Shown: positions 23,875 through 31,571 of the stretch, piece by piece | How positions within the stretch are numbered: the stretch's first letter is position 1 | Layout of the letters: each line of letters starts with the position of its first letter | Assembly (NCBI RefSeq): GCF_021353295.2 | Contig: NZ_CP120635.1 | Location: 1,034,001 to 1,098,000 of the forward strand | DNA: 64,000 nt | From: Pseudodesulfovibrio thermohalotolerans | GTDB taxonomy: Bacteria; Desulfobacterota; Desulfovibrionia; Desulfovibrionales; Desulfovibrionaceae | Reading direction: 5' to 3' | The notes under the pieces: model-generated | What the model saw: the letters and a program-made list of their open reading frames with translations, nothing else | Database searches by the model: none | What the model was told of the DNA's origin: nothing | Program-made: the position numbers and the translations under genes

Positions 23875-24447
23875 TTATCCTTTTATTTTGAGGAAGTTTG
23901 CGAGGAGCTTGGGGCCTTCGGGGGTGAGGATGGATTCCGGGTGGAACTGCACGCCGTGCCAGGGCCGGTCCTTGTACCGCAATCCCATGACCTCGCCCTG
24001 TTCGGTGCGGGCTGTGACCTCGATTTTGTCGGCGGCCTTCTCAGCCGGGACGATGAGGGAGTGGTAGCGGCAGACCGTGAACGGGGAGGGCAGCCCTTCG
24101 AACACGCTCCGGCCCTCGTGGAAGACCTCGGAGGTCTTGCCGTGCATGATCCGCCCGGCGCGTTCAACGGGCGCGCCCGCGAAGTGGCCCAGGGTCTGAT
24201 GCCCCAGGCAGACGCCGAGCACCGGCGTTTCCTTGGGGAGCCTGGCCAGGAACTCCAGGCAGAAGCCCGCGTTCTCCGGATTGCTCGGTCCGGGTGAGAG
24301 GCAGACGCGTTCCAATTCGCCGCTTTCGGCCAGCTCCAGGACTTCTTCCCGGTCGTTGCGGATGACCACAGGGTCGGCATCGAGCTGCTGGAACGCCTGC
24401 ACCAGGTTGAAGGTGAAGGAGTCGAAATTATCGATCAGCAAAAACAT
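23875..24447 (-). CDS. trpG: Anthranilate synthase glutaminase component
   Basis: Class I glutamine amidotransferase that supplies ammonia to TrpE. The nucleophile Cys is in VLGVCLGHQTLG; the His/Glu pair is in GVQFHPESIL near the end. NFDSFTFNLVQ is the typical N-terminus. 190 residues. The gene overlaps trpE by 20 bases. It may also serve para-aminobenzoate synthesis, as in some bacteria. Confidence 0.96.
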   Translation of the reverse strand: MFLLIDNFDSFTFNLVQAFQQLDADPVVIRNDREEVLELAESGELERVCLSPGPSNPENAGFCLEFLARLPKETPVLGVCLGHQTLGHFAGAPVERAGRIMHGKTSEVFHEGRSVFEGLPSPFTVCRYHSLIVPAEKAADKIEVTARTEQGEVMGLRYKDRPWHGVQFHPESILTPEGPKLLANFLKIKG

Positions 24448-25894
24448 CGGTGCCTCCCTTGCCGGTGATGACTTCGAGGATCACACGGGCCTTGTTGTTG
24501 CATTCGACCCATTCGGCCTCGGGGTTCGAATCGTAGACGATGCCCGCGCCCGCCTGCCAATGGCAGACGTTGTCCCTGATCCACATGGAGCGGATGGTGA
24601 TGCCGGTGTCGAGGCTGACCTCGCCGTCGTCCAGGCCTATCCAGCCTATGCAGCCCCCGTAGGGGCCGCGCGCTTCGGGTTCCAGCTCGGCGATGATCTC
24701 CATGGCCCGGATTTTGGGCGCGCCGGACAGGGTCCCGGCCGGGAAGGTGGCCTGGAGCACGTCCACGCCGTCCAGTCCGTCCTTGAGTTCGCCTTCCACG
24801 TAGGAGGTCAGGTGCATGACGTGGGAGAACCGTTCCACGTTCATGAATTTCTCCACGGTCACCGTGCCGGGTTTGGAGATGCGGCCCAGGTCGTTGCGGC
24901 CAAGGTCCACAAGCATGACGTGTTCGGCCCGTTCCTTGGGATCGGCCAACAGATCCTCTTCCAGGCGGATATCCTCCTTCTCGGTCTCCCCGCGCCAGCG
25001 GGTGCCCGCGATGGGGCGCACTTCGAGGCTGCCGCGCGCGGAGCGGACCATCATTTCGGGCGATGAGCCGAGCAGAGTGGTCCCGCAGGTCTTGCCCATG
25101 GAGGGGCAGTCCGGGAATTTCATATAGAACATGAACGGCGATGGGTTGGCCTGGCGGAGCCTGCGGTAGATTCTGAACGGCTCGTCGGGCAGGGGCACGG
25201 AGAACCGGGTGGACAGGACCACCTGGATGCATTCGCCCTCGGCGATAAGCTCCTTGCACCGCGCGACCCCGGCCATGTATTCCTCTTTGCCGGGGTGCAC
25301 CTCGGGCGCGCCGGTTTCGGGAGCGGTCAGGTCGGCCCCCCATTGGATCGGAGCGGGTATGGGCGTGGCTCCTTCGTCCAGGGAGAGGTAGCAGCAGGAG
25401 TGGCGCAGATGGTCGAAGAGAACCATCTGGCCGGGCAGGACCAGGCACGCCTCGGCGTCCTCGGGCCTGCATACGTCTTTCAGTTTGCGCTCGAACATCC
25501 CGGCCACACCGTAGCCGAAGTAGCCGTAGAGGCCGCGCGTCAGGCCGGGCAGCCCGTCGCGGCCCACGGCCGGGGAGGCGCCGGTGGCCTCCTGCTCGAT
25601 GGAGAGATGTTTGACGACTTCCTTGATCCCGGCCAGGAAGTCCATGCCCTCGAACTCCTTGAGGGGCGAGAGCCTTTCGTCGGAGGCCTCGACGACCAGC
25701 TTGCCGTCCACGGGGTGGAGCATGAGGCGGTAGTCGAAGGCGATGAGGGAGTAGCGGCCGAGCCGCCCGTCCACCTCGGCGGATTCCAGGAGAATGCCGG
25801 GTTGGTCGCCCACAAGTCCCATGTAGAGGGAGATGGTGGTTTGCACGTCGGCAGGCATCCATTTGCCGTGCTGCGTGAGGGGTATTTTCTGCAT
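24428..25894 (-). CDS. trpE: Anthranilate synthase component I
   Basis: Converts chorismate plus ammonia to anthranilate. The N-terminal LLESAEVDGRLGRYS is the tryptophan feedback site; the catalytic core has RPIAGTRWRG, DLGRNDLGR, TFPAGTLSGAPKIRAME and YGGCIGW. 488 residues. The ATG is preceded by GAAGGATACGC. It is the first trp gene and lies behind a 241-base gap that holds an attenuator-like structure, so expression is probably regulated separately from the aro genes upstream. Confidence 0.97.
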   Translation of the reverse strand: MQKIPLTQHGKWMPADVQTTISLYMGLVGDQPGILLESAEVDGRLGRYSLIAFDYRLMLHPVDGKLVVEASDERLSPLKEFEGMDFLAGIKEVVKHLSIEQEATGASPAVGRDGLPGLTRGLYGYFGYGVAGMFERKLKDVCRPEDAEACLVLPGQMVLFDHLRHSCCYLSLDEGATPIPAPIQWGADLTAPETGAPEVHPGKEEYMAGVARCKELIAEGECIQVVLSTRFSVPLPDEPFRIYRRLRQANPSPFMFYMKFPDCPSMGKTCGTTLLGSSPEMMVRSARGSLEVRPIAGTRWRGETEKEDIRLEEDLLADPKERAEHVMLVDLGRNDLGRISKPGTVTVEKFMNVERFSHVMHLTSYVEGELKDGLDGVDVLQATFPAGTLSGAPKIRAMEIIAELEPEARGPYGGCIGWIGLDDGEVSLDTGITIRSMWIRDNVCHWQAGAGIVYDSNPEAEWVECNNKARVILEVITGKGGTDVFADR

Positions 25895-26063
25895 TGCGTA
25901 TCCTTCGCACTCCTCGCGCGCGGAGCGTGCGCTCCACTCACAATCGTGCCGGTTTTGGCTGTTCGTTAATGATATGGCCTAGGTATGACCTGCCATCCCT
26001 TGATCTTCTTGTGGTTTTCCCATTTCTTTCACGTACCGTTCATCATGTTCTCCTTCAAAATAA
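25895..26063 (-). promoter_or_regulatory. trpE leader beyond the internal terminator
   Basis: About 170 bases between the terminator and trpE. A good ribosome site (AAGGAGAAC) precedes a five-codon reading frame (MMNGT, stop TGA) at 26027-26044; the same frame stays open after that TGA and contains two Trp codons, which may be chance. A small hairpin GGAGC/GCTCC lies at 25923-25936. No clear promoter is visible. Confidence 0.4.
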
Positions 26064-26134
26064 AGCCGCACCCTTGGTCGGGGTGCGGCTTCGGTTACAG
26101 GTGTAATCGTGTGCCCGGCGAAACGCCGCACCCC
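26059..26134 (-). promoter_or_regulatory. Candidate Trp attenuator between tyrA and trpE
   Basis: Three segments on the minus strand: A, GGGGTGCGGC (26125-26134, one base after the tyrA stop); B, GCCGCACCCC (26080-26089); C, GGGTGCGGC (26065-26073). A and B can pair over 10 bp (antiterminator) and B and C over 9 bp followed by TTTATTTT (terminator). A ribosome ending tyrA would cover A and let the terminator form; one stalled at the three Trp codons of tyrA (26157-26165) would leave A free. All pairings were read directly from the sequence; function is inferred. Confidence 0.75.
26065..26089 (-). terminator. Intrinsic terminator between tyrA and trpE
   Basis: A 9-bp GC-rich stem (GCCGCACCC with GGGTGCGGC) and seven-base loop, then TTTATTTT on the minus strand. 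It lies inside the otherwise continuous aromatic operon, 47 bases after the tyrA stop, and is the terminator half of the attenuator described at 26059-26134. Confidence 0.8.
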
Positions 26135-26135
26135 A

Positions 26136-26906
26136 TCAATAAGATTCTTCGTTGCGCCACCACCACTGGGCCCGATCGGCCAGCAGGTCGAGATCGCCGC
26201 CGGCGGCCAGGCTGAGATAGGACATGAACTTGCGGCTTACTTCCTGCAAAAACGGGTTGGCCTCGGAGATGATCTCGAAGAGTTCCATGTCCTGGGTCAG
26301 CATTTTCGCGGCCGAGTCAAGTCTGCGCCGGAAGGATGGAGTGACGTAATTGCGGATGCTCTCCACATCCCGGGCCGCGGCCAGGAAGGCCACGGTGGAG
26401 GTATAGTTCAGGCCCTGGATGTAGGCCATGGCCCGGTCGTGCTCCTCCGGGTCGGAGGCGAAACAGCCGTAGCCGCAGCGGGTGAACAGGTCGGCCACCA
26501 GGGCCGCGGCGTCCGCGTCGCGGTCGCGGCCGGGCATGACCGCCACTCTGGGCTCGAATCCGTCGGGAACCACGGGGCCGAACAGGGGGTGGGTGCCCAC
26601 CACCGGCCCCTCGTACCGGGCCGTCATGGCCTTCACCGGCATGATTTTCACGGAACCCACGTCGCAGAGGATGGTCGGCGCGGCAAGCATCGGCAGCATT
26701 CGGTCGAGCACGGCGTCCATGGCCGTGACGGGCACGCTGAGCAGGAGCAGGTCGCATCCGTCGAGGGCAGCGCGCACGTCTTCGTCCGAGGAGCCCCGGT
26801 CCAGGCTCGTAACGTTCAGGCCGAGTCCGGCGAAGTCCGTCGAGAAGCGGCCGCCCATCTGCCCGTTCGCGCCCACGACGGCTATGTTGTGTATTTCCGT
26901 TGCCAT
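26136..26906 (-). CDS. tyrA: Prephenate dehydrogenase
   Basis: NAD(P)-dependent oxidative decarboxylation of prephenate to 4-hydroxyphenylpyruvate for tyrosine. The N-terminal Rossmann loop is VVGANGQMGGRFS; VGTHPLFGP holds the catalytic His; DVGSVK is conserved. 256 residues, no ACT or chorismate mutase domain. The C-terminus is odd: AQWWWRNEESY, with three consecutive TGG codons ending 18 bases before the stop. This fits a second job as the leader peptide of a Trp attenuator in front of trpE. 22 bases separate it from aroA upstream. Confidence 0.94.
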   Translation of the reverse strand: MATEIHNIAVVGANGQMGGRFSTDFAGLGLNVTSLDRGSSDEDVRAALDGCDLLLLSVPVTAMDAVLDRMLPMLAAPTILCDVGSVKIMPVKAMTARYEGPVVGTHPLFGPVVPDGFEPRVAVMPGRDRDADAAALVADLFTRCGYGCFASDPEEHDRAMAYIQGLNYTSTVAFLAAARDVESIRNYVTPSFRRRLDSAAKMLTQDMELFEIISEANPFLQEVSRKFMSYLSLAAGGDLDLLADRAQWWWRNEESY

Positions 26907-26928
26907 GATTTCTATCTGTCCTTGCGGG

Positions 26929-28269
26929 TTAGCCGACGATCTTCTTCCACTCGTCGAAGAAGCCCGGGAAGGATTTGTTGACGCATTCGGGGTTGTCGAG
27001 CGTGGTTTTGGCTCCGGCCAGTTCGAACAGGGTCATGGCCATGGCCATTCTATGGTCGTTGTAGGTCTTGAACTTCACTTCGCTGTCGCGGGGCGGACGT
27101 CCCGGGCGGATGGTGAGCGAATCGTCGGACGCCTCAGCCTCGCAACCGGCGCGCGTCAGCTCGGCGGCGCAGGCCGCCAGCCGGTCCGTCTCCTTGAGGC
27201 GGAGATGGGCCACGTTGTCGATGGTCGTCGGCGTGGCGGCGAAGGCGGCCACGGCGGCCACGGTGGGAACCAGGTCGGGGCAGCGGCCCATGTCGACTCT
27301 TATGCCGCGCAGTCTGCTCGGCTCCACCAGGATGCCGTTGAAATTGACTTTGATGGAGGCTCCCATCTGGCTGAGGATGTCCATGATCGCCCGATCGCCC
27401 TGAAGGGAGTCGGCGGCCAAGCCTTTGAGGAGCACCGGGCGCGAACCCACTGTCCCGGCGGCGAGAAAATAGCTGGCGTTGGACCAGTCTCCCTCGACCA
27501 TGTAGCCGGTGTTCTCGTAGCCGGTCGGCTTGACGATGAAGCGGACCTGGCCGGGGGTCACGCCCTTGATCGAACGCCACGGCACTTCCTTCCAGGCGCG
27601 GTCTTCCTTGATCTCCACGGCGAATCCTGCCTTGAAGTCCTCCATGATCCGCAGGGTCAGGGCGACGTAGGGCCAGGACACGGCCTTGTCACCGGTCACC
27701 GCGATGGTCGTCTCGTGGTCGGCCATGGGCGCGCCCAGGAGCAGGCCGGACAGGTACTGGCTGCTTTCCTCAAGGGTGATGTCCACGCTCTTTTTTCGGT
27801 ATCCCCCGGCGGTCATGACGAAGGGGAGGAAGCCCTTTTCCCCCTCGAAATCGAATTTGGCTCCCAGGTTCGACAGGGCGTCGGTCAGCTCGGCCATGGG
27901 GCGCTCGTGCATACGCGGCGCGCCGTGAATCCGGAAGACGCCCTTGCCAGCGGCGGCCACGGCGGTCATCAGACGGCAGGTGGTCCCGGACTCGTGCATG
28001 AACAGCTCACGCGGCTCCTCGTCCTTGTGCTTGCCGTCCGCGTTGGCCCCCTTGGGGCCGTCCTCCATGCCCGTGACAACCAGCTTGCCGTCCTTTTCCT
28101 CAATGGCGGCTCCGCAGGCGGTCAGGCAGTCGCGGGTGCGGGTAATGTCGTCGGAGTCGAGGACCGAGCTGATTTCGGACACGCCTTTGGCCAGGGCGGC
28201 GGCGATCAGGGTGCGGTGGGAGAGGGACTTGCTGGCCGGAGCATTGACGATGATCGGATCCTTGGTCAT
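26929..28269 (-). CDS. aroA: 3-phosphoshikimate 1-carboxyvinyltransferase (EPSP synthase)
   Basis: Transfers enolpyruvyl from PEP to shikimate 3-phosphate. NAPASKSLSHRTLIAAAL is the first substrate loop, LRLKETDRLAA the PEP-binding one, and YNDHRMAMAMTL the third. The start ATG overlaps the pheA stop (ATGA), so translation is coupled. The frame stays open upstream but that part is only the shadow of pheA. 446 residues, close to the normal length. Confidence 0.96.
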   Translation of the reverse strand: MTKDPIIVNAPASKSLSHRTLIAAALAKGVSEISSVLDSDDITRTRDCLTACGAAIEEKDGKLVVTGMEDGPKGANADGKHKDEEPRELFMHESGTTCRLMTAVAAAGKGVFRIHGAPRMHERPMAELTDALSNLGAKFDFEGEKGFLPFVMTAGGYRKKSVDITLEESSQYLSGLLLGAPMADHETTIAVTGDKAVSWPYVALTLRIMEDFKAGFAVEIKEDRAWKEVPWRSIKGVTPGQVRFIVKPTGYENTGYMVEGDWSNASYFLAAGTVGSRPVLLKGLAADSLQGDRAIMDILSQMGASIKVNFNGILVEPSRLRGIRVDMGRCPDLVPTVAAVAAFAATPTTIDNVAHLRLKETDRLAACAAELTRAGCEAEASDDSLTIRPGRPPRDSEVKFKTYNDHRMAMAMTLFELAGAKTTLDNPECVNKSFPGFFDEWKKIVG

Positions 28270-30542: not shown

Positions 30543-31340
30543 CTATGCGTTGAGGTGGTTGAGGGCGGCCTCGACGGATTCGTCGTTGTGCACGACCATG
30601 TTCAGGGCCTCGACCAGACGGGTGGGGTTGTCGTGCTGGAAGACGTTGCGTCCCACGGACAGGCCCGCGCCTCCGGCTTCCAGGGAGTCATGCACCATCT
30701 GGAGGAACGCCTCGGTGCTGTCGAGCTTGGGGCCGCCCGCGATGACCACGGGGATGCAGCAGGCGTTGCACACGCGGGAGAACGAGTCGATGTCGCCGGT
30801 GTAATTGACCTTGACCACGTCCGCGCCCAGTTCGGTGCCCACGCGGGCGCAGTGGGCCACGATCTCGGGGGCGTATTCATTCTTCACCTTCGGGCCTCGG
30901 GCGTAGACCATTGCCAGGAGCGGGATGCCCCAGTTGGATGCGTCGGAGGCTATTTTCCCGAAATCGTTAAGCATGGCGGCTTCGGTTTCATCGCCGAGGT
31001 TGCAATGGATGGACACGGCGTCCGCGCCGAGCCGGATGGCGTCCTCCACGGAGGCGACCAGGGATTTTGCGTTGGGGAAGGGAGAGAGGGAGGTGGAGGC
31101 GGAGAGGTGGACGATGAGGCCGATGTCCTTGCCTTCGGCGCGGTGGCCGCAGCGGACAAGGCCCTTGTGCTCAATGACGGCGTTGGCCCCTCCGTCGACG
31201 ACCTTGCCTACCGCCTCGCGCATGTCGACCAGTCCGTCGATGGGGCCGACTGTCACGCCGTGGTCCATGGGGACGATGATGGTCCTGCCGGTGTTGCGGT
31301 TGAAGATGCGCTCCAACCTGATGGCTTTTCCGATGTGCAT
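30543..31340 (-). CDS. ADTH synthase (2-amino-3,7-dideoxy-D-threo-hept-6-ulosonate synthase)
   Basis: Class I aldolase-like TIM barrel that makes the seven-carbon precursor of the archaeal-type shikimate route. The sequence shows the FbaB/LsrF-like fold: [15 protein letters not shown] near the start, VVKVNYTGD with the Schiff-base Lys, VIAGGPK, and [11 protein letters not shown] at the phosphate site. 265 residues. First structural gene of the aromatic operon, 135 bases after the leader peptide stop. The substrate assignment is from family knowledge. Confidence 0.92.
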
Positions 31341-31399: not shown

Positions 31400-31437
31400 A
31401 AAAAAACAAGGGCCGCCGGCTTTCGCCCGCGGCCCTT
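31400..31437 (-). terminator. Attenuator terminator ahead of the aromatic operon
   Basis: AAGGGCCGC pairs with GCGGCCCTT (9 bp), with an inner GGC-GAAA-GCC cap, then GTTTTTTT on the minus strand. Its left arm can instead pair with GCTCGCGG at the end of the leader frame (31498-31505), which would prevent termination. Confidence 0.88.
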
Positions 31438-31475
31438 GAAGAAGTTTTCTATCGGTTGTGTGATCCACCAAAAGG

Positions 31476-31571
31476 TTACACAGCGCCTCTTCCAAGCCCG
31501 CGAGCGTGGCTATACCAATACCAAAAGTAAAAGTTGGAAAAGTATGCGGTGGTAACGATGGAGGTCTTCAT
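31476..31571 (-). CDS. Aromatic-rich leader peptide of the aro-trp operon
   Basis: A 31-codon frame on the minus strand, MKTSIVTTAYFSNFYFWYWY then SHARGLGRGAV and TAA. Codons 14-20 read Phe-Tyr-Phe-Trp-Tyr-Trp-Tyr except that residues 14-20 are F,Y,F,W,Y,W,Y in a row, with Tyr10 and Phe11 just before. This is what a leader peptide sensing all three aromatic aminoacyl-tRNAs should look like. Codons 23-26 (GCT CGC GGG CTT) form the antiterminator arm. The ribosome site is weak (GAGG is 16 bases away). Position, stop and terminator fit classic amino-acid operon attenuation. It is too short for standard gene calling. Confidence 0.85.
   Translation of the reverse strand: MKTSIVTTAYFSNFYFWYWYSHARGLGRGAV

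Follow-up and report, generated by a model that had tools for sequence, protein, structure and literature searches.

The junction between tyrA and trpE very probably constitutes a ribosome-mediated transcription attenuator, in which the 3' end of tyrA would serve as the sensor reading frame. When charged tRNA-Trp is ample, the leading ribosome would clear three TGG codons, reach the tyrA stop and cover an RNA segment A; segment B would then pair with segment C and RNA polymerase would stop before trpE. Under Trp shortage, the ribosome would stall on the TGG run and the free A would capture B before C is made. With A:B formed, transcription would continue into trpEGDCFBA. The stall on TGG, the kinetic antitermination and the Trp response are steps that we infer; the sequence elements, their conserved spacing, the covariation of A with B, the wide conservation and the free-leader versions were observed directly.

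All features discussed lie on the minus strand of the window, that is, the whole 64-kb stretch of DNA that was analysed (Table 1). The aro-tyr-trp cluster is read in the order aldolase-like aro, dehydroquinate-synthase-like gene, chorismate mutase/prephenate dehydratase, EPSP-synthase-like gene, tyrA, trpE, G, D, C, F, B and A. We take these names from the translations and from general knowledge of the families, trpE having also been recognised by a family search. Homologues of the tyrA product bear the name prephenate dehydrogenase, and among named organisms those closest to the genome are Pseudodesulfovibrio. The gene order agrees with that of the D. vulgaris aromatic cluster as far as the latter is laid out in PMC1173090.

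Table 1. Positions of the aromatic cluster, the predicted tyrA-trpE switch and neighbouring elements within the window.
Feature	Position	Strand	Remarks
Free leader peptide MKTSIVTTAYFSNFYFWYWYSHARGLGRGAV*	31476..31571	minus	before the whole aro-tyr-trp cluster; putative first-tier attenuator
Front-leader terminator hairpin	31407..31438	minus	T-run 31406-31400
aro-tyr-trp cluster	first gene (aldolase-like aro) starts at 31340	minus	from ORF translations
tyrA	26136..26906	minus	prephenate/arogenate dehydrogenase family, PF02153 relatives; 256 residues; from ORF list
Putative regulatory codons TGG TGG TGG (TGGTGGTGG)	26157..26165	minus	Trp248-250
tyrA stop TGA	26136..26138	minus	ribosome here would cover segment A (footprint assumed)
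Segment A GGGGTGCGGC	26125..26134	minus	5' arm of predicted antiterminator; begins one base past stop
Segment B GCCGCACCCC	26080..26089	minus	common to predicted antiterminator and terminator
Segment C GGGTGCGGC	26065..26073	minus	3' arm of predicted terminator
T-run TTTATTTT	26057..26064	minus	end of predicted intrinsic terminator
Mini-ORF ATGATGAACGGTACG-TGA-(20 codons)-TAA	25966..26046	minus	in-frame TGA 26031-26029
trpE	24428..25894	minus	starts at 25894; first of the controlled genes; from ORF list and family search
trpE, G, D, C, F, B, A (controlled genes)	down to about 19381	minus	names from ORF translations

TyrA ends in ...AQWWWRNEESY*, encoded by TGGTGGTGG, six further codons and TGA, and the three TGG are the only Trp codons in tyrA. 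A and B are perfect complements over 10 bases and C is a 9-base copy of A, so that either a 10 bp A:B helix or a 9 bp B:C helix (longer if the flanking A/T pairs are counted) can form. These elements had been described in the first-pass annotation, from the WWW tail to A one base past the stop and the T-run after B:C, and direct reading confirmed them with all coordinates right. The T-run is separated from the trpE start by 162 bases. Segment A and the GCC that follows it may also form a small local hairpin; the same hairpin (GGC...GCC) appears at A in the consensus fold of the genus and might conceivably pause the polymerase so as to keep it in step with the ribosome.

The 86 bases right after the tyrA stop fold better than 200 out of 200 shuffled sequences (z -3.1), the B:C hairpin dominating the fold. 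GGGGTGCGGC occurs with zero mismatches three times on both strands of the window; two of these occurrences correspond to A and to the complement of B, at a distance of 45 bases from each other. The 15-mer TGGTGGTGGCGNAAC is found in a single place in the genome. Since TGGTGGTGG alone occurs five times in the window, WWW by itself is weak proof. A generic terminator scan of positions 25880-26300 found no terminators and did not flag B:C, which we think was missed as the stem extension ran into the T-run.

A tyrA search of relatives returned the gene from all 36 genomes of the genus, 178 out of 199 genomes of a family sample and 277 out of 297 of an order sample. The downstream DNA was examined for 129 loci, 36 from the genus and 93 from elsewhere in the family and order; 13 of the latter were returned by the search and 80 were picked by hand to sample genera, hence non-randomly. 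A script located the last Trp run, a hairpin with a T-run and the best upstream partner of the hairpin 5' arm. The scripted test (a terminator plus a pairable A) is passed by 87 of the 129 loci. Three TGG codons are present in 86 of these 87, and trpE is visible downstream in 85, the contigs of L017 and L114 ending before it. Two extra loci pass by eye: L055 and, with a poor T-run, L052. Among the remaining 40 loci, trpE overlaps tyrA or starts within 60 bases of it in 14, no trpE is present in the stretch in 15, and trpE without a recognisable terminator is found in 11. Overall, the attenuator is predicted in 22 out of 43 genera and at least once in each of the six families sampled within the order. 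Nitratidesulfovibrio genomes (L229 and L235) are among those with this junction. A second, named collection of 80 loci had 50 flagged with an attenuator (the flag of L243 looks spurious); it comprises largely the same genomes and thus is not independent of the main survey.

Several loci deviate from the common layout. L232 and L253, both flagged with an attenuator, have four consecutive Trp codons in the TyrA tail. L062, L063 and L068 carry GC-rich inverted repeats without a clear T-run between tyrA (WWW) and trpE, possibly a variant of the attenuator. L070, L071, L073-L075, L079, L081, L082, L083, L096, L105 and L106 lack the attenuator and have tyrA overlapping trpE; where trpE starts 4 bases before the end of the tyrA stop (L070, L071, L073-L075, L082, L105), the tail has WW. 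Recoding of an in-frame TGA within TyrA was considered for four relatives and rejected: the TGA of L055 is an ordinary stop with similarity running on past it, and the frames of L062, L063 and L111 run on to their own stop with the tail intact.

The pairing of A with B is specific. Duplexes of A with its own B have a mean energy of -22.7 kcal/mol versus -18.2 (sd 0.6) when A is permuted among 21 genera; with one representative per genus, 0 of 2000 permutations reached the observed value in each of 50 draws. At 81 of 87 loci, the real upstream sequence is matched in pairing by at most 5% of 200 shuffled versions, a share exceeded at the other six. A locus's own B is better than the B of every other genus in 11 of the 87 cases and within the best 5% in 37; it rarely outranks all others because B arms all resemble one another. 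An alignment of 28 distinct sequences from the genus has 94.6% of its A:B cells paired versus 39-50% in slid controls, and four A:B pairs are changed on both sides, a result found in 0 of 500 shuffles. The B:C core is 96% paired and hardly covaries, its score being reached by 110 of 500 shuffles; two outer pairs of the B:C stem have changes in both partners, in 8 and in 13 sequences respectively. Thus, the covariation of A, B and C proposed earlier as a check holds for A:B, both within the genus and across 21 genera, while variation in the B:C core is too low to tell.

The distance from the Trp codons to A is better conserved than that from the Trp codons to the stop: A (its first GG) starts 16.3 nt past the last TGG (per-genus mean, sd 2.0; 8-23 by locus), and the tyrA stop codon ends 30.1 nt past it (sd 5.9; 15-45 by locus). 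A lies past the stop or adjoins it in most Pseudodesulfovibrio loci, as it does in L039-L051 with the exception of L048; L039-L051 are relatives that carry the name Humidesulfovibrio. In deeper lineages it is written into the last tyrA codons, as in L086 with its ...RGGVRPS* end. Since its place relative to the stop thus differs between genera, A tracks the Trp codons. With either placement, a ribosome on the TGG run would leave A free and one at the stop would cover it, given a footprint assumed from general knowledge.

The two states were folded in silico with the ribosome masked according to this footprint. In the stalled state, before C is made, the A side takes up most of the pairing of B in 86 of 87 loci, with a mean of 0.80 versus 0.55 for shuffled upstream sequences; the real value exceeds the shuffle median in 84 loci and every one of 20 shuffles in 45. 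A ribosome placed at the stop gives the terminator in 87 out of 87 loci; at that position, and before C is made, B still pairs with something upstream in 30 of them. Once C is present, B:C prevails at equilibrium in the stalled state too (0.80 vs 0.13), so antitermination would have to be kinetic. As a control, the E. coli K-12 trp leader gave 0.62 (stalled) and 0.95 (at stop) with A 13 nt past the last TGG, and B:C is favoured at equilibrium there as well (0.93 vs 0.02); the two conformations are called similar in stability in the account given in PMC1183508. Hence the earlier suggestion that the geometry fits classic attenuation stands, as both spacing and two-state folding match the E. coli trp leader in silico.

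The WWW tail goes with the attenuator but is not confined to it. WWW is found in 21 out of 22 attenuator genera, the remaining one having WWF, and in 10 out of 21 genera in which no attenuator was recognised; one more genus is mixed. This enrichment has a Fisher P of 0.0006 (0.0015 if the mixed genus is counted as WWW), for genera classified by hand and uncorrected for kinship. WWW is absent from 13 out of 13 TyrA tails read among the better-scoring hits from other orders of the phylum. The last two Trp are invariant in 14 aligned TyrA. As WWW is kept in those 10 genera, the Trp residues are probably in part structural. In the genus g40, all ten TyrA loci examined (L108, L110, L111, L168-L174) keep WWW, and none has trpE within about 1.4-1.5 kb behind tyrA. 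Conservation of the WWW tail in TyrA proteins with no trpE downstream had been named in the first-pass annotation as a finding that would refute the attenuator, and g40 shows it in part; the interpretation is otherwise supported.

A search of 18 genomes without trpE behind tyrA located trpE elsewhere in 14, six of the ten g40 genomes among them; in two of the 14 it is 6-7 kb from tyrA, on the other strand. All 13 unlinked trpE genes examined (L175-L187) are preceded by a free ORF with two or three consecutive Trp codons and a terminator. A lies 13-16 nt past the Trp run in 11 of the 13 by script; L186 fits by eye and L181 is weak. The run consists of three Trp in 11 leaders and of two in L181 and L187, Arg coming next. 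These ORFs are mostly 26-32 residues long, some with more than one possible start, and tyrA is not their upstream neighbour. Several of them resemble TyrA tails (compare WWWRVVDVKGGVRPA in L179 with WWWRSHTERGGVRPS in TyrA of L086), a likeness that partly follows from the RNA constraint. Since an unlinked trpE has a free Trp-run leader of the same layout, the WWW kept in g40 TyrA is best read as a relic. In our reading, the fused form would be ancestral to the order and the trp genes would have moved out together with a copy of the sensor, single steps in the opposite direction being possible. The original reading of the junction as a trp attenuator with the end of tyrA as its leader is strongly supported by comparison. 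It was made from one sequence; the arrangement is order-wide, and its free form is an ordinary leader peptide.

Another leader ORF is located in front of the whole cluster. Its terminator is strong, and an A-like partner of the hairpin lies within the leader codons (ACGCTCGCGGGCTTG). This front aromatic leader was found in 33 of the 36 genus genomes; 30 loci were read, with the terminator identified by script in 28. The peptides contain 3-4 Phe, 2-5 Tyr and 1-2 Trp, and the A segment lies 0-5 bases past the aromatic run. The front leader looks ribosome-mediated as well and would control the whole cluster including the trp genes. Table 7 of PMC1173090 gives an attenuator from the Merino database in front of the D. 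vulgaris cluster, which is probably the counterpart of the front leader; the same table marks none between tyrA and the trp operon. With a Phe/Tyr/Trp leader attenuator in front and the tyrA-trpE switch inside, control looks two-tier: the front leader would act as the first, general aromatic tier and the switch in the tyrA tail as a Trp-only second tier.

A mini-ORF is situated between the terminator and trpE. Its product follows the pattern M..xT-TGA-K..ENRKK.KGW.VIPRP.. with a stop after exactly 20 codons (TAA in 22 cases, TAG in one). It occurs once per genome, at the tyrA-trpE junction, in 23 of the 36 genus genomes (L132-L154 in relatives), and was found in none of the 43 other genera sampled. 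Five other genomes have kept the start and the TGA and lost the tail. Past the TGA, third positions are the most variable, and synonymous changes make up roughly half the codon differences in frame 0 versus 4-9% in other frames, so the mini-ORF looks translated through or past the TGA. A reading of the TGA as selenocysteine is possible, selB having scored over the cut-off in 34 of the 36 genus genomes, but a consensus fold of 22 distinct mini-ORF tails leaves the 40 bases that begin at the TGA unstructured. The attenuator model does not require the mini-ORF.

One could argue that B:C is a mere terminator of the aro-tyr operon, with trpE served by its own promoter, A being a copy of the stem that arose by chance or was left behind, and WWW being structural in TyrA. 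The retention of WWW in several lineages without a recognised attenuator agrees with this, as does a weak promoter-like match upstream of trpE (25996-25969), which could bypass the predicted switch. We nevertheless find such an explanation unlikely, as it leaves aside the specific pairing of A with its own B across 21 genera, their covariation within the genus, the position of A, which tracks the TGG run and not the stop, and the recurrence of the same layout in free leaders before trpE genes unlinked to tyrA. Alternatively, A, B and C might report only that tyrA has been translated to its end, any stall or absence of a ribosome freeing A and the TGG codons being incidental. Any ribosome at the stop would indeed cover A, and the spacing needs just a ribosome upstream of A. 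However, the Trp run is what unites the fused tyrA tails with the free leaders found ahead of trpE, WWW is enriched where the attenuator is present, and the controlled genes make Trp, all of which renders translational coupling without Trp specificity very improbable.

T-box, TRAP and riboswitch-type systems control trp genes elsewhere, and a regulator of one of these kinds could be imagined at the junction. We found nothing in support of it: an Rfam scan of positions 25000-27000 gave five weak matches up to E 10, with no T-box, Trp leader or riboswitch among them, and the covariance models RF00513 (Trp leader) and RF00230 (T-box) had no match up to E 10 in the same interval. With the scan covering the T-box, Trp leader and riboswitch models, we consider such a regulator highly improbable, and an attenuator read by ribosomes translating the tyrA tail is the explanation we prefer.

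If the attenuator operates as proposed, a stall in the tyrA tail should also lower the amount of finished TyrA, a competitor for chorismate. We tentatively propose, without counting this among the likelier parts of the model, that the TyrA tail has a dual use: one stall would open the trp operon and cut TyrA completion, so that chorismate would be switched at one stroke from the tyrosine branch to the tryptophan branch, inside the general aromatic attenuator, and the sensor would have passed between fused and free states, leaving WWW relics behind. If the tyrA-trpE switch works as predicted, a classic attenuator could do without a purpose-made leader ORF and use the tail of a functional enzyme instead, and the antiterminator would sometimes be written into the last codons of the enzyme. 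The system would present a concrete case of one sensor known both as an enzyme tail and as a free leader peptide, and it offers a reason for the odd WWW tail across the entire order. By extension, further operons may conceal attenuators at the boundaries between genes, out of reach of searches confined to 5' leaders. A sensor made of amino-acid codons within the tail of an enzyme, and conserved across an order, seems to be new. The first-pass annotation knew of no described case, and we likewise recognised no description of a trp attenuator in a tyrA tail in the open-access full-text literature, much of the literature lying beyond that scope.

Among known systems, E. coli rph-pyrE has an upstream structural gene as the translated leader and senses UTP via polymerase pausing. 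The tyrA-trpE junction resembles this precedent in that, by position, a full upstream structural gene would be the attenuator leader of the next gene; it differs in its amino-acid regulatory codons, which rph-pyrE is not known to involve. The front leader of the same cluster is free and combines Phe, Tyr and Trp, whereas the tyrA tail is Trp-only and lies within an enzyme gene. The leaders L175-L187, which belong to the same family, share with the junction the Trp run, the spacing of A and the terminator layout, but they are free ORFs, while the sensor here would be tyrA itself. As for the hallmarks of a trp-type attenuator, the junction has a translated ORF in which codons for the amino acid made by the pathway stand in a run (three TGG), and, at the level of sequence and folding, a mutually exclusive antiterminator and intrinsic terminator before a biosynthetic gene; with the assumed footprint, the antiterminator arm would be free when the ribosome is stalled and covered when it is at the stop. 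A dedicated short leader peptide is absent from this place in the window, where tyrA is the sensor ORF, and is found only where trpE is not behind tyrA. In this the system differs from E. coli trpL, a dedicated 14-residue peptide with two TGG codons; here the C-terminus of a 256-residue enzyme provides three, and we identified no counterpart to the separate 5' pause hairpin of E. coli. In other respects the likeness to trpL is close: tandem Trp codons stand shortly before the stop, the terminator ends in a T-run, the antiterminator arm begins close past the last TGG (after 13 nt in E. coli), the same states are obtained in silico, and the opposition of a stalled ribosome to a ribosome at the stop is the scheme outlined for the E. 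coli trp attenuator in PMC1183508.
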